From Paenibacillus sp. CC-CFT747 (lineage in GTDB: Bacteria; Bacillota; Bacilli; Paenibacillales; NBRC-103111): 64,000 nt of DNA. Of this stretch, positions 40,080 through 55,056 are shown piece by piece. Below the pieces are notes generated by a model. The model searched no databases and was not told the DNA's origin. It saw nothing but the letters and a program-made list of their open reading frames with translations. The stretch is from the NCBI GenBank assembly GCA_030323305.1, contig CP106741.1, positions 2,232,501 to 2,296,500 of the forward strand, given 5' to 3'. How positions within the stretch are numbered: position 1 is the stretch's first letter; every line of letters starts with the position of its first letter. The translations under genes and the position numbers were made by a program.

Positions 40080-40095
40080 CTAGTGCCTTATCCGG
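40080..40095. repeat. Solitary end of the 97-bp palindromic repeat
   Basis: CTAGTGCCTTATCCGG is identical to the terminal inverted repeat of the elements at 43109, 49539 and 54961. In the minus-strand direction it supplies the TAA stop codon of the MFS gene (GGATAAGGCACTAG). Confidence 0.7.
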
Positions 40096-41632
40096 CAGGG
40101 CTTATAACTTTCGTTTTCTCGCGGAGCATCACGGCCGTGGCGACCGAAGCCAGGAGCAGAATGACGCCGGCGGTGAGGCAGGTGACGTGCATGGCGGTCA
40201 TGAACGCTTCCCGGGAGGCTGTCATGACTTGACCCGCCGCTTCGGTTGGCAGCTGCTGGGAGGCGGCGGAGGCGCCCGCAATGGTTTGCCTGGCCGCGGA
40301 GGCGGCCTCCGGCGAGAGGCCGGGTGGCAGAAGGGGCGATACGGCATGGCGGTAGATCGCCGAGAGGACGCAGCCGAGAAGCGCGATGCCGAAGGCACCG
40401 CCGAGCTCGCTGGACGTTTCGAGGAGGCCCCCGACCGCTCCGGCCCGATCGGCCGGCGCCACCCCCACGACATAATCGGTGACGAGGGTCATGACGGACA
40501 CGATTCCGGCGGCAACCAGTCCGGCACCAACGAGCATGACCGTGAGCGGGGAGAAGCCTTCCAGCCGGACCTGGGTCAGGAGGACGAACCCGAATGCCGA
40601 CAGCACGAACCCGGCGGCCATGATGCGGGGCCTTCCGTGCGTAATCGAGAGCTTCGCGGCGACCGGCGCCGCCGCCCCGACGGCAACCGAGGGCAGAATG
40701 CTCCACAGGGCGGCCGCAAGCGGAGAGTACCCCAGTACCGATTGGAGAAACTGGGTGTTGACCAGGGCGCTTGCCATAAGCGTGAAGGTGGCGATCAGGT
40801 TAATGAGGATCGAGCCTCCGGTCCGCCGCTCCATCAGCGCACGGATATCGATTAAAGGGTTGGGGATCGTCCATTGACGCTTGACAAAGACAAAACCGAA
40901 GAACAAACCGGCGGCAAGCATCCCGGCAGGGAAGAGGGCCCAGCCCTCCTCGGCCAGTGTTTTGACACCGTAAGTTACGGGCAGGATGGCAAGAAGCGCA
41001 AGGAGCGAACTGAAAGCATCGATCCGGGTGCGGTCCGCGCTGCGGGATTCCGGGAGCAGGAAGGGGGCTGTCAGAAGCAGCAGCGCCATGGCGGGGAGGT
41101 TAAGGAGGAAAACCGAGCCCCAGGAATAGGCTTGAATGAGCAGGCCGCCGATAATCGGCCCGACCGTGACCCCGCCGGCCATGACGGCGCTCCAGACCGA
41201 CATCGCCTTGGTCCGCTGACCGGGGTCTTGGAACATGGTGCGGACGAGAGCCAGCGTCGACGGCATGAGGGTGGCTCCCGCTATGCCGAGAACGCCGCGG
41301 GCCACAATCAGGGATTCGGCCGTCTGGGAGAACGCGGCGAACAACGAGCACAGGGCAAATCCTACGGAGCCCAGCATCAACAGGCGCCGGCGCCCGATCC
41401 GGTCGCCAACGGCTCCCATGGTCAGCAGAAGTCCGGCAAGTACAAAGCCGTAAATGTCGAAAATCCATAATTGTTGGACGGCTGTCGGGCGCAAATCCGC
41501 GGCGATGTCGGGTGCGGCAAAGAACAGAACGGATACGTCCATCGAGACGATCATCAGGGGGAGACAGAGCACACCTAGTGCGATCCATTCTTTGCGTCCG
41601 GCCGGCTTGACGGCAGAGGGGGTGGTGGTCAT
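40088..41632 (-). CDS. MFS drug efflux transporter, DHA2 (EmrB/QacA) type
   Basis: 514 residues with fourteen predicted membrane helices. Motif A is GDRIGRRRLLMLGS and the DHA2-type first helix is LPLMIVSMDVSVLFFAAPDI. Relatives such as QacA and SmvA export cationic antiseptics and other drugs by proton antiport; the substrate here is inferred only from family. ATG 41632 follows AAGGAGAGG. The promoter region carries the TetR operator. The gene ends inside a repeat end at 40080-40095 that provides its stop. Confidence 0.92.
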   Translation of the reverse strand: MTTTPSAVKPAGRKEWIALGVLCLPLMIVSMDVSVLFFAAPDIAADLRPTAVQQLWIFDIYGFVLAGLLLTMGAVGDRIGRRRLLMLGSVGFALCSLFAAFSQTAESLIVARGVLGIAGATLMPSTLALVRTMFQDPGQRTKAMSVWSAVMAGGVTVGPIIGGLLIQAYSWGSVFLLNLPAMALLLLTAPFLLPESRSADRTRIDAFSSLLALLAILPVTYGVKTLAEEGWALFPAGMLAAGLFFGFVFVKRQWTIPNPLIDIRALMERRTGGSILINLIATFTLMASALVNTQFLQSVLGYSPLAAALWSILPSVAVGAAAPVAAKLSITHGRPRIMAAGFVLSAFGFVLLTQVRLEGFSPLTVMLVGAGLVAAGIVSVMTLVTDYVVGVAPADRAGAVGGLLETSSELGGAFGIALLGCVLSAIYRHAVSPLLPPGLSPEAASAARQTIAGASAASQQLPTEAAGQVMTASREAFMTAMHVTCLTAGVILLLASVATAVMLREKTKVISPAG

Positions 41633-41649
41633 GAATATCCTCTCCTTAC

Positions 41650-41684
41650 TGTGTATTATATAAACTGTAATTAATATACACAGT
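41650..41684 (-). promoter_or_regulatory. Putative TetR operator of the MFS gene
   Basis: TGTGTATTATATAAACTG (41650-41667) matches the site before the TetR gene at 14 of 16 core positions. A larger inverted repeat, ACTGTGTAT...ATACACAGT, spans the same region. Confidence 0.65.
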
Positions 41685-41779
41685 ATATGCAGTAAACAGT
41701 TATCGGTCAATACCCAAATTTCGTGGCATGAGAGGACACGGAACTCTACCGATTTTGGCAGGCAGGTGGGTTGAAAAAG

Positions 41780-41893
41780 ATGAACAGAACCAAGAGGGAA
41801 AAGGCCGCGCAGGAGGTCCTTATTGCCACGGAACGCCATGTTTTGCGCGGGGGCGCCGATAATGGTGTGTACGCCAAGAGGCGGGGGAGCTAA
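41780..41893 (+). CDS. Candidate 37-residue small protein
   Basis: MNRTKREKAAQEVLIATERH continues to VLRGGADNGVYAKRRGS and stops 37 bases before the next gene. It is basic and hydrophilic. The upstream GGTGGG is a weak, distant SD. No relative is recognised; it could be chance in a GC-rich stretch. Confidence 0.25.
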   Translation: MNRTKREKAAQEVLIATERHVLRGGADNGVYAKRRGS

Positions 41894-41930
41894 AATGGAG
41901 GCATAGAGTACAGATAAGAGGTGGGGGAGC

Positions 41931-42973
41931 ATGCGTGAAGTTGAAGTGGCTGTCGTTGGCGCGGGGCAGGCCGGACTGGCGGCAGGGTATTACCTACAGA
42001 AGAGGAAAGCATCCTTCGTTATCCTCGGACAGGAAGAGCGGGTGGGGGACAGCTGGCGGAACCGGTACGATTCTCTGCTGTTGTTCACCCCGAGGTGGTA
42101 CAGCGGCCTGCCCGGCGGGCCGCTTAGAGGGGAACGGAACGGCTATGCCTCTAAGGATGAGGTAGCGGATTACCTGGAAGGATACGCGAACTGCTGGAGG
42201 CTTCCGGTGGAGCTCGGGACGCAGGTTCAGACGATGGAGACGGCTGACCGGACTTTTCAACTTTCTACGAGCCGAGGCCTCTATAAGGCAAAGAAGGTCA
42301 TAGTGGCGACTGGCCCGTTCCAGAAGCCGTTCCTTCCGGAAATGGCGGGCGGCGTGTCCCGCGAGGTCTTCCAGCTGCATACGTCCGAATACCGGAATGC
42401 GGAGCAGCTGAAGAACGGGCCGGTTCTTGTAGTCGGTGCGGGCAATTCGGGCGCGCAGATCGCCGTGGAGCTGAGCCAGGGAAGGGAGCGGGAGGTCTAC
42501 TTGTCGGCCGGACACAAGCTGTCGATCTCCTCGCAGAAAATACTCGGGTTAAGTGTCTTCTGGTGGTTCCGGAGGCTGGGCCTTCTGCAAGCGTGGATAG
42601 GCCGGATGGTACGCGGCCGGGGTGAGCTGGTCTTCGATACGGGCCTCTCCGGCGCGCTGGCCGAGGGGACATCGTGCTGAAAGCACGCAGCACTCGGGCG
42701 GAAGGGCGAGCCTTCTGGTTCGAGGACGAAGTCGCTCCCGTGCAGATCTCCAATGTGATATGGGCCACGGGGTTTCAGAGCGATTACCGCTGGATTCAAG
42801 TTCATCAGGCGCTGAACCCATCGGGCATGCCCATCCACCGACAGGGAGAAAGCCCGGTCCAAGGGCTGTTCTACCTCGGCTTGCCCTGGATGCGCTGCCG
42901 GGCCTCCGCGCTGATCGGAGGAGTGGGGGTGGACGCAAGCTATTTCGTAGACCGCCTGTTTCGGCAGGGATAA
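41931..42973 (+). CDS. FAD-dependent flavin-monooxygenase-like protein (one frame break)
   Basis: About 347 residues: FAD motif VAVVGAGQAGLAAGYYLQKR, the WRNRYDSLLLFTPRWYSGLP segment typical of CzcO/YUCCA-like monooxygenases, NADPH motif VLVVGAGNSGAQIAVEL, and ATGFQSDYRWI near the end. Members oxidise N- or S-containing substrates or quench metals and electrophiles; the substrate is unknown. One G is missing near 42668 in GAGGGGAC. ATG 41931 lies after AAGAGGTGGGGG. Confidence 0.88.
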
Positions 42974-43108: not shown

Positions 43109-43205
43109 CTAGTGCCTTATCCGTTAGTGTTGTTCGGCTTGCCTAATGATTTTTGCACGCCTACAGAGAGTTTCTCTCCAACAAAGTTACCGGATAAGGC
43201 ACTAG
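43109..43205. repeat. 97-bp palindromic repeat, copy A
   Basis: Bounded by perfect 15-bp inverted repeats CTAGTGCCTTATCCG and CGGATAAGGCACTAG. The internal sequence (reverse complement: TAACTTTGTTGGAGAGAAA... AATCATTAGGCAAGC) matches copies B and C in reverse orientation. It lies in the gap between the flavin monooxygenase-like and SseB-like genes. It has no coding capacity and looks like a MITE. Confidence 0.85.
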
Positions 43206-49089: not shown

Positions 49090-49542
49090 ATGGCGAACTA
49101 TCCGCTGGATGAAGAGCAGGCCGCTTCGCTTAAGCTTTTTGTCATCTTGTCCAAGGCTTACAAGACGCTCATGGATCACGCCGTGAAGGATATCCGTCAG
49201 TATGGCGTTTCCTCTTCGGAATTTGCCATTCTGGAGGTATTGTACACGAAAGGCCGGATTCCTCTTCAGCAGATCGGCGAGAAGGTTCTGATCACAAGCG
49301 GGAGCATCACGTATAACATCGACAAGCTCGAGAAGAAAGGGCTGATGAAGCGGGTGCCCTGCCCGGAAGACCGCCGGGTGACCTACGCGGAGATCAGCGA
49401 GACCGGGAGGCAGTGGTTCGATGAGATCTTTCCGGGGCATGCCCAGGCTATCCATGAGAGGATGCAGGGGCTGACCTTGGAAGAGAAGACTGAGTCGGCC
49501 GAGCTTCTGAAGAAGCTGGGCAAGGCGGCAGGCAAGGGCTAG
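49090..49542 (+). CDS. mhqR: MarR-family repressor, MhqR-like
   Basis: 150 residues, winged-helix MarR fold (VSSSEFAILEVLYTKGRIPL, QQIGEKVLITSGSITYNIDK, wing RVPCPEDRRVTYAEIS). Similar in pattern and context to Bacillus MhqR, which represses hydroquinone/quinone detoxification genes; here a ring-cleaving dioxygenase and an esterase follow with the same operator. ATG 49090 after GGGAGGTGAGGG. The TAG stop is formed by the end of repeat copy B, so the natural C-terminus may have differed by a few residues. Confidence 0.85.
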   Translation: MANYPLDEEQAASLKLFVILSKAYKTLMDHAVKDIRQYGVSSSEFAILEVLYTKGRIPLQQIGEKVLITSGSITYNIDKLEKKGLMKRVPCPEDRRVTYAEISETGRQWFDEIFPGHAQAIHERMQGLTLEEKTESAELLKKLGKAAGKG

Positions 49543-49635
49543 TGCCTTATCCGGTAGCTTGGTTGGTGAGAAAGCTTCCTTATGGGCACTATAATCAATA
49601 GGGAAGCAGAGCATCATTTGCGGCTAAGGCATGGG
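49539..49635. repeat. 97-bp palindromic repeat, copy B
   Basis: Starts with the intact CTAGTGCCTTATCCG end and finishes with a degenerate copy of the other (CGGCTAAGGCATGGG). The interior TTGGTGAGAAA and AATCAATAGGGAAGC correspond to copies A and C. Its first bases provide the stop codon of the MarR gene. It separates regulator and target operon. Confidence 0.75.
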
Positions 49636-52684: not shown

Positions 52685-54330
52685 ATGATGCCGGGTCTCA
52701 AGCGTAAGCTTACTATTCATGGAAACGGCTGGCTCGCGGTCAGCCTGGCGGGGGCGGCGGTCGTAGCGCTGCCCCTTCTGTACATCATGACGGCTTGGGT
52801 GCAGCCTCCGAACGACAATTGGCTGCAGATTCGCCGGTACCTGCTGAAGGACTACTTGACCGATACCGTTATCCTCGTGTTCTTCAGCTGCTTGTTCGCG
52901 GCCATGCTGGGTGTGGCGCTCGCTTGGTTTGTGGCTGCCTTTGATTTTCCGCTGAAGCGGTTCTTCCGCTGGGGCCTGATGCTGCCGCTGGCCGTTCCGC
53001 CCTATATTGCGGCTTTCACCTATGGGAACATGTTCAGCTACACGGGAACGGTTCAGAAGGCCCTGCGCGCCATCGGCATCACCCCGAACCCCGTGCTGAT
53101 GGATATGCTGTCCATGCGGGGAGCGGTGTTCATCTTCACCTTCTTTTTATACCCGTACGTGTATATGATCGCCCGGGCCTTTCTGGAGAAACAGAGCGCT
53201 TCTTATATCGAAAATGCCCGGCTCCTCGGCAAAAGCCCACTAGCGGTCTTCTTCCAGATCGTGCTTCCTTTGTCCCGTCCGGCCATGACGGGAGGCGTCA
53301 TGCTTGTCCTGTTCGAGGTGCTGGGGGATTATGGAGTCACGAGCCATTTTGGCATCCGCACCTTCTCCACTGCGATCTTCCAGACGTGGTTCGGGATGTA
53401 CGACGCCGATTCCGCCATGCGGCTCGCCTCCTGGCTGATGCTCGGAGTGGCTGCCCTGTTCGGGGCGGAGCGCCTCTTCCGGCGCCACCGGTCCTTTCGC
53501 GTCGTTAACAGCCGAACCCGCCCGCTGATGCCTGTGCGTTTACACGGATGGCGCGCAGGTCTGGTCGTGTCGCTGTGCGGCCTGGTGGCGGCCGTATCCT
53601 TCGTCATCCCCGTCACCCAGCTGATCGTATGGGCCGGCTGGACGTACGAGACGGTTCTGAATGCGGGCTTCGTGCGCCTTGCCTGGAACACGGTTACGCT
53701 TGCGCTGGCCGCTTCGGTGATCGTCATGCTGCTGGCTGTCATCGCCGCGGAGGCGCTGCGCCCGCACAAGGGAGGCTTCGGCTTCGCCGTCTCCCGGGTG
53801 CTGATTGCCGGCTACTCCATCCCGGGGGCGATTGTCGCGATCGGGGTGCTCGGGCTGTTCCTGCTCCTGGACCGAGCGGCCGCCGGGCTCTATGCCGCCT
53901 GGGGGCTCGCCGTTCCCCGCCGGTGCCGAGCCTGACTGTCACGATGCTGGTCTTCGCCTACGTCGTGCGCTTCCTCGCGGCCGGCTACAATGCCGCCGAG
54001 GCCGGGATGGAGCGGATCGGCCCCCGGTATGCGGAGGCGTCCCGGGTGCTCGGCCTGGCCCGGACCCGGACCTTTCTCCGGGTGGAGCTGCCGCTCCTCC
54101 GGGGAGCGCTCCTGGCGGGCTTCCTGCTGACCTTCGTCGAGGTCGTGAAGGAGCTTCCTCTCGCGCTGCTTCTGCGCCCTTTTAACTTTGAAACGCTGGC
54201 GACCCATGCTTATCAGTATGCGGGGGATGAGCGGATACACGAAGCCTCGCTGCCGTCCCTGTTCATTATCGGAATCAGCCTGGCTTCGGTGCTTGTGATC
54301 CAGAAGGCGGGGAAGGAGAGAAGAGAATGA
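52685..54330 (+). CDS. Ferric-iron ABC importer permease, fused two-domain (one frame break)
   Basis: About 548 residues containing two permease units of about six helices each, as in FbpB/FutB. Each carries an EAA-type loop (SYIENARLLGKSPLAVFFQI; PRYAEASRVLGLARTRTFLR). One base is missing near 53915 in a C run; correction gives AVPPPVPSLTVTMLVFAYVV. Its ATG directly follows the binding-protein stop and its stop overlaps the ATPase start, so the three genes are one coupled operon. Confidence 0.92.
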
Positions 54331-54964
54331 GCTTTGTAACCATTGAGGGATTGTCGTTCGCCTACGGGGAAGCCGGAACCGCGTCTTGGACGGCTTCAGC
54401 CTGTCCCTGGAGCAAGGGGAGGTAGCGGCGGTGCTCGGCCCGAGCGGGCAGGGCAAAAGTACCCTTCTGCGCCTGATCGCCGGGCTGGAGATTCCGGCGG
54501 AGGGCTCCATTGCGGTCGGCGGGGTGACGCTGGTGGACGAGAGGACCTTCCTGCCTCCCGAGAAGCGGGGAGTCGGCATGGTATTCCAAGATTACTCGCT
54601 GTTTCCGCACCTGACGGCGGCCCGGAACATCACCTTCGGGCTTCACCGGATGAGCCCGAAGGAAAGGGCGGTCCGGCTCCGGGAGATGCTCGAGCTCGTC
54701 CGGCTGACCGGCTGCGAGGCGCGTTATCCTCACGAGCTGAGCGGCGGCCAGCAGCAGCGTGTGGCGCTTGCCCGGGCACTCGCGCCCGGACCGCGCCTGC
54801 TGCTTCTGGACGAGCCTTTCAGCTCTCTTGATGCCGAGCTTCGGGCGAGCATCCGCTCCGAGCTGAAGGCCATTCTCGCCCAAGCCGGCATGACGTGCCT
54901 GGTCGTCACCCATGACCGGGCCGACGCAGAATCGATCTGCTCCCGCGTGGTGACGGTGGGCTAG
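54327..54964 (+). CDS. Ferric-iron ABC importer ATPase (one frame break; 3' end in repeat)
   Basis: About 212 residues: Walker A GPSGQGKST, Q-loop VFQDYSLFPHL, signature LSGGQQQRVALARAL, Walker B LLLLDEPFSSLD, and switch VVTHDR. One base is missing near 54378; correction gives NRVLDGFSLSLEQGEVAAVLG. It ends SRVVTVG with TAG supplied by repeat copy C, and lacks the C-terminal regulatory domain present in many FbpC proteins. Either a naturally short form or truncated by repeat insertion. Confidence 0.9.
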
Positions 54965-55056
54965 TGCTTTATCGGTAACTTTGTTGGCGAGAAAACCTCT
55001 GGATGCGCACGAAAATCAATAGGAAAGCAGAACAGCCCTTACGGATAAGGCACTGA
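54961..55056. repeat. 96-bp palindromic repeat, copy C
   Basis: CTAGTGCTTTATCGG ... ACGGATAAGGCACTGA with interior GTAACTTTGTTGGCGAGAAA and AATCAATAGGAAAGCAGAACA, the same as copies A and B. Its first bases give the ATPase gene its stop codon. Between that gene and a convergent phosphotransferase gene. Confidence 0.82.

Follow-up and report, generated by a model that had tools for sequence, protein, structure and literature searches.

A 91-bp MITE-like element inserted in pre-existing stop codons

RUP of Streptococcus pneumoniae, a 107-bp MITE attributed to IS630-Spn1, is the closest described analogue of the element analysed here (PMC2229807). In the account given by that source, RUP resembles our element in being present in about 100 copies of about 100 bp, in its inverted ends, in its TA targets and in its mostly intergenic location. 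The two differ in length and sequence, and RUP has a candidate parent transposon whereas the present element has none. RUP is also described there inside IS elements, in contrast to the present element, which is found for the most part between genes and at their ends. The Correia/NEMIS elements of Neisseria, as portrayed in the same source, are likewise small MITEs with a terminal TA and a target duplication; their length and inverted repeats are different, and their 107-bp form frequently forms fusions with reading frames (PMC2229807), while here a single copy out of 113 is found within a called gene.

For MITEs that overlap gene ends, QMITE1 and QMITE2 of Coxiella burnetii provide a precedent, since their copies overlap the last bases and the stop codons of functional genes, and an indel between strains shifts the stop of enhC (PMC5896051). 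The overlaps described in that report range between 1 and 50 bp, and they can lengthen the protein, whereas at the gene ends reported here every junction consists of TA plus G and protein length is unchanged. Within the open-licence literature we found MITEs overlapping gene ends, and we did not find the rebuilding of a stop codon by TA plus G. Finally, with respect to insertion, IS630 of Shigella sonnei and ISY100 of Synechocystis go into TA with a 2-bp duplication (PMC2170065), and a preference of IS630 for CTAG is stated in the title of reference 29 of that paper (Tenzen and Ohtsubo, 1991).

The window analysed here is a stretch of 64,000 nucleotides, positions 2232501-2296500 of a 6.22-Mb genome assembled in one contig (G000). 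A second strain of the same species (G063) was used to compare occupied and empty alleles.

The repeat and its target site

The repeat is a 91-bp non-coding element with the consensus GTGCCTTATCCGGTAACTTTGTTGGCGAGAAAACCTCnGTATGCGCACGAAAATCAATAGGAAAGCAGAACTTCATTTGCGGATAAGGCAC, the inverted ends GTGCCTTATCCG and CGGATAAGGCAC, and TA on either side. A covariance model search detected 113 copies in G000, and the window holds three complete copies and one solitary end (Table 1). At one of them (49540-49634) the flanking TA is kept on the left, and the right-hand TA has decayed (CATGGG). The element is short, non-coding, dispersed in many copies and bounded by terminal inverted repeats, and both a target duplication and evidence of movement are provided by ten clean empty alleles in G063, each with a single TA. 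It is therefore a MITE-like non-autonomous mobile element. Many of the sites occupied in G000 also carry a copy in G063, and the differences between the two strains show that copies have moved, or have been lost precisely, since their divergence. A structured RNA element was considered as well and was rejected, for lack of any match to the curated RNA families of Rfam at the element sites and because consensus folding revealed scarcely any pairing apart from that of the ends, with a single compensatory pair among 32 copies.

Among 120 intact ends, 105 have G immediately inward of the TA, irrespective of the base on its outer side; the duplicated sequence is therefore TA, and the G is the first base of the element at both ends. 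The ten clean empty alleles have exactly one TA between the flanks, which corresponds to a 2-bp duplication of TA. In 58 of the 113 copies the outer bases form CTAG, an excess of about 16-fold over the share of CTAG among TA sites outside genes, with this background estimated from sampled stretches of the genome that include the neighbourhoods of copies. Members of the IS5 group use YTAR targets and duplicate 4 bp covering the CTAG/YTAR. We rejected such a 4-bp CTAG duplication for the present element, because its empty alleles differ by the element plus 2 bp only and because of the pattern of inner and outer bases; no DDE_Tnp_1 transposase was found in G000.

The target behaviour likens the element to IS630 and ISY100 as presented in PMC2170065, with which it shares TA targets, a 2-bp duplication and a preference for TA within CTAG. 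Unlike them it is 91 bp long and encodes nothing. Of the features that define the IS630/Tc1-mariner group, the TA duplication and the preference for TA in CTAG were thus both present, but searches of G000 and G063 detected no transposase with a DDE_3 domain (PF13358, IS630-type), and for this reason the element is not assigned to the IS630 group here. An autonomous parent with these ends was found in neither strain nor in the collections searched; the mobilising enzyme may have been lost, may be too diverged for the model or may reside in other strains. In 104 genomes of the family the covariance model detected copies in this species alone, and no convincing match came from public genomes, plasmids, phages and viral contigs (one weak plasmid match, E 0.8, was ignored). 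At the sensitivities of these searches, the element is found only in this species among the genomes covered.

Element ends at stop codons

For each copy, about 2.5 kb of flanking sequence on each side was taken, genes were called with a codon-usage script, and, for the gene that reads towards an element end, the distance between its stop codon and the T of the TA next to that end was measured. A distance of 0, meaning that this T is the first base of the stop codon, was found for 26 of the 113 copies (23%), although single gene boundaries may be off, as the script is a simple one and the G000 assembly may carry indel errors. No other distance occurred more than three times in the table of 113 copies. 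At all 26, the stop codon is made of the flanking TA and the element's own G. Comparisons between the strains are independent of these gene calls.

Table 1. Features of the window, and alleles of five stop-codon sites that are empty in G063
Feature	Window position	Strand	Match in G000	Stop codon or allele	Basis or remark
Solitary element end TAGTGCCTTATCCGG	40081..40095	+			Exact 14-mer; complete copy at same place in G063
TAA stop of MFS gene inside remnant end (GGATAAGG)	40088..40090	-		TAA	Sequence, ORF list, orthologues
MFS transporter gene	40088..41932	-			Pfam MFS_1; orthologues 73-80% identity
Complete element copy, intergenic	43110..43204	-	2275610-2275704		Model match, context table; nearest upstream stop 139 bp off
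MarR-family regulator gene	49090..49542	+		TAG (target TA + element G)	Reconstructed old stop TAG
Complete element copy	49540..49634	+	2282040-2282134		Model match; same copy in G063
ABC-transporter ATPase gene	54386..54964	+		TAG (target TA + element G)	Open frame from about 54386
Complete element copy	54962..55055	+	2287462-2287555		Model match; same copy in G063
CobT				Empty GGG-TAG	
73-aa ORF				Empty GTC-TAG	
Decarboxylase-like fragment				Empty AGC-TAG	
PyrG				Empty AAC-TAA; occupied AAC-TAG	
122-aa ORF				Empty AAC-TAA; occupied AAC-TAG	

A first-pass annotation of the window had reported that the TAG codons of the MarR gene (49540-49542) and of the iron-ATPase gene (54962-54964) fall within the first bases of the repeat. 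Both are present in the sequence, and tabulation of distance and phase across the genome showed the coincidence to be general. The same annotation had the MFS gene stopping within the solitary end, which is correct as to position but differs in geometry: the MFS stop is a TAA inside an end read outwards (GGATAAGGCACTAG), whereas the other two consist of the flanking TA and the G of the element. For the ATPase gene the reconstructed old stop is TAA. The frame of this gene also appears to be shifted by one base near its start, at window positions 54300-54400 (MSFVTIEGLSFAYGEAG... followed by another frame), for which an assembly indel is a possible source, the stated completeness of G000 being 90.65%.

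A chance coincidence of ends and stops was ruled out. The 14-base end of the element, allowing one mismatch at most, occurs 160 times in the genome versus 3 times for a reversed control, and the peak at distance 0 holds 26 copies; by the count of ends, the solitary end at 40081 is not a chance match.

The reading that we favour, at a probability of roughly 85%, is that of a MITE with TA duplication and CTAG preference, whose stop-rebuilding insertions survive, whose insertions in genes are lost and whose copies later suffer internal deletions. The MITE would insert by duplication of TA with a strong preference for CTAG, in the manner of the IS630/Tc1/mariner group, and we infer mobilisation by a transposase of the IS630 type. 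Since both ends start with G when read inwards, an insertion in any in-frame TAN reads TAG in either orientation, and a TAG or TAA stop that is split at its TA is always rebuilt as an in-frame TAG. Such insertions would leave the protein unchanged and persist, whereas those within genes would presumably be lost by selection. About a quarter of the surviving copies would then stand in stop codons because CTAG outside genes often is a stop codon.

The CTAG sites near copies (n=283) comprise 131 in genes, 31 at stop codons and 121 in intergenic DNA; of the 113 copies, just one is within a called gene, as compared with those 131 of 283 sites. With target preference and loss of in-gene insertions, 17.2-17.6 copies of 113 are expected at stop codons, against 26 observed (P about 0.02); without target preference the expectation is 7.5-9.4. 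Inclusion of three random regions of low coding density lowers the expectation to 11.6, a drop that probably stems from poor gene calling in those regions. The stop-codon pattern follows mostly from ordinary target choice plus selection. Accordingly, the earlier proposal that the element targets gene ends holds in so far as the coincidence with stops far exceeds that at any other distance, but most of it is accounted for by CTAG preference and loss within genes, and a small excess is left.

The excess of 26 over 17 does not follow from the target-choice model, nor does an orientation bias of 20 to 6. The gene enters through the TAGTGCCTTATCCGGTAAC end at 20 of the 26 stop-codon copies (P 0.009, in a test made post hoc), and this bias is seen at stop codons only, the counts for copies further downstream of genes being 39 versus 49. 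Both observations would fit an active targeting of gene 3' ends or stop codons beyond CTAG, for example through the DNA structure of terminators or a coupling to translation termination, and the excess would be larger still if the three poorly called regions were kept. However, 14 of the 58 copies with CTAG targets (24%) are at stops, which is near the background of about 20%, the orientation test was devised after the fact, and selection against copies that land in promoters or in intergenic DNA with another function, which may be the cause of the small residual excess, would produce the same mild deviation. We therefore regard active targeting as unlikely. From the same bias beyond CTAG and the same facing of one end towards the gene, one could also suppose that the outermost bases were selected as a stop-preserving end and that stop codons are an actively used safe harbour, a proposal that we consider doubtful.

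The solitary end in the MFS gene

In G063 a complete element occupies the stop codon of the MFS gene, and the protein ends in ...REKTKIISPAA-TAG. Compared with this allele, G000 lacks 86 bp, a stretch that starts at the last MFS codon and reaches into the far end of the element, with CCG at both sides of the break. The end that remains in G000 provides an in-frame TAA (GCC GGA TAA GG), so that the protein ends in ...SPAG, and its length is that of orthologues in three other genera, which share the same stop column. The solitary end is thus the remnant of a microhomology deletion and has taken over the stop of the MFS gene. In the mechanism favoured above, complete copies would decay in this way through internal deletions, one of which would have left the MFS end with the TAA (GGATAAGG) that became the stop.

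The first-pass annotation had suggested that this end was left by excision. It is indeed a remnant, and the survival of just one 15-bp end is what speaks for an excision footprint. But the complete element is present at this site in G063, only one junction between flank and end was lost while one end was kept, the break carries CCG, and other copies in both strains show internal deletions of various extents, all of which make an excision footprint very improbable.

A second remnant similar to that of the MFS gene was observed at locus L279 of G000, which retains just GATAAGGCACTA at the site of a full copy in G063 (L237, 3254309), with an apparent GAT microhomology. Very short derivatives of about 33-60 bp, with little beyond the two inverted ends, were also noticed at G000 561358-561399 and at L073, L097, L111 and L159.

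Stop codons with and without the element

Five of the ten clean empty alleles are stop-codon sites, and in all five the gene ends at the same codon without the element. Three of these stops are TAG and two are TAA, the latter changed to TAG in the occupied allele (Table 1); an old TAA thus becomes TAG through the G that the element donates. Precise excision might in principle account for the empty sites; yet two of them restore TAA and not TAG, as expected if they were never occupied. Reconstruction of the old codon from the TA and the first base beyond the far end gave TAG at 16-17 of the 26 stop-codon copies and TAA at the rest, with TAT or TAC at none, although taken alone this is a modest test, since about 87% of other ends also have a fitting base. 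In other genera, where the element is absent, the MarR and MFS orthologues terminate at the same column or at most a few residues away from it, and the closest-ending ATPase homologues differ by one or two residues. The family-profile matches of CTP synthase, CobT and fructose-bisphosphate aldolase extend to the end or nearly so. As the empty alleles already have the stop, and given the ends of the orthologues and the reconstructed codons, insertion of the element does not truncate genes.

The opposite explanation, put forward in the first-pass annotation, that the element tolerates insertion in coding sequence by ending translation at once and so leaves shortened genes, would be allowed by TA plus G giving an in-frame TAG for any TAN codon in both orientations, but retains next to no probability in the face of the five empty alleles, the 0 of 26 reconstructed TAT or TAC codons, the proteins that match their profiles up to the end or close to it and the element-free orthologues, whose C-termini at or near the same column are the very observation that the annotation had named as evidence against it.

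Under the favoured reading of a CTAG-preferring MITE whose stop-rebuilding insertions survive, the element illustrates how a small transposon can spread in a gene-dense genome without breaking genes, since CTAG is scarce within genes and, outside them, often forms a stop codon, and the split stop is rebuilt by the element. The allele pairs of the two strains make this rebuilding directly visible, including the change from TAA to TAG by insertion. A mobile element thereby contributes one base of some stop codons and, as in the MFS gene, a decayed copy can itself become the stop.

Two further observations concern the arrangement of the copies. Nested or tandem copies, with an element or an end within the flanking TA of another copy, were seen at L111 (G000 1792105-1792289), where G000 has two tandem units and G063 one, and at L144 (3176499-3176604). 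Moreover, 87 of the 113 copies lie within a quarter genome of the origin position, taken as ~1.916 Mb in G000 from the position matching the dnaA start of G063 (P about 7e-9), and CTAG sites outside genes were only ~1.6 times denser in the origin-proximal half in the sampled regions.
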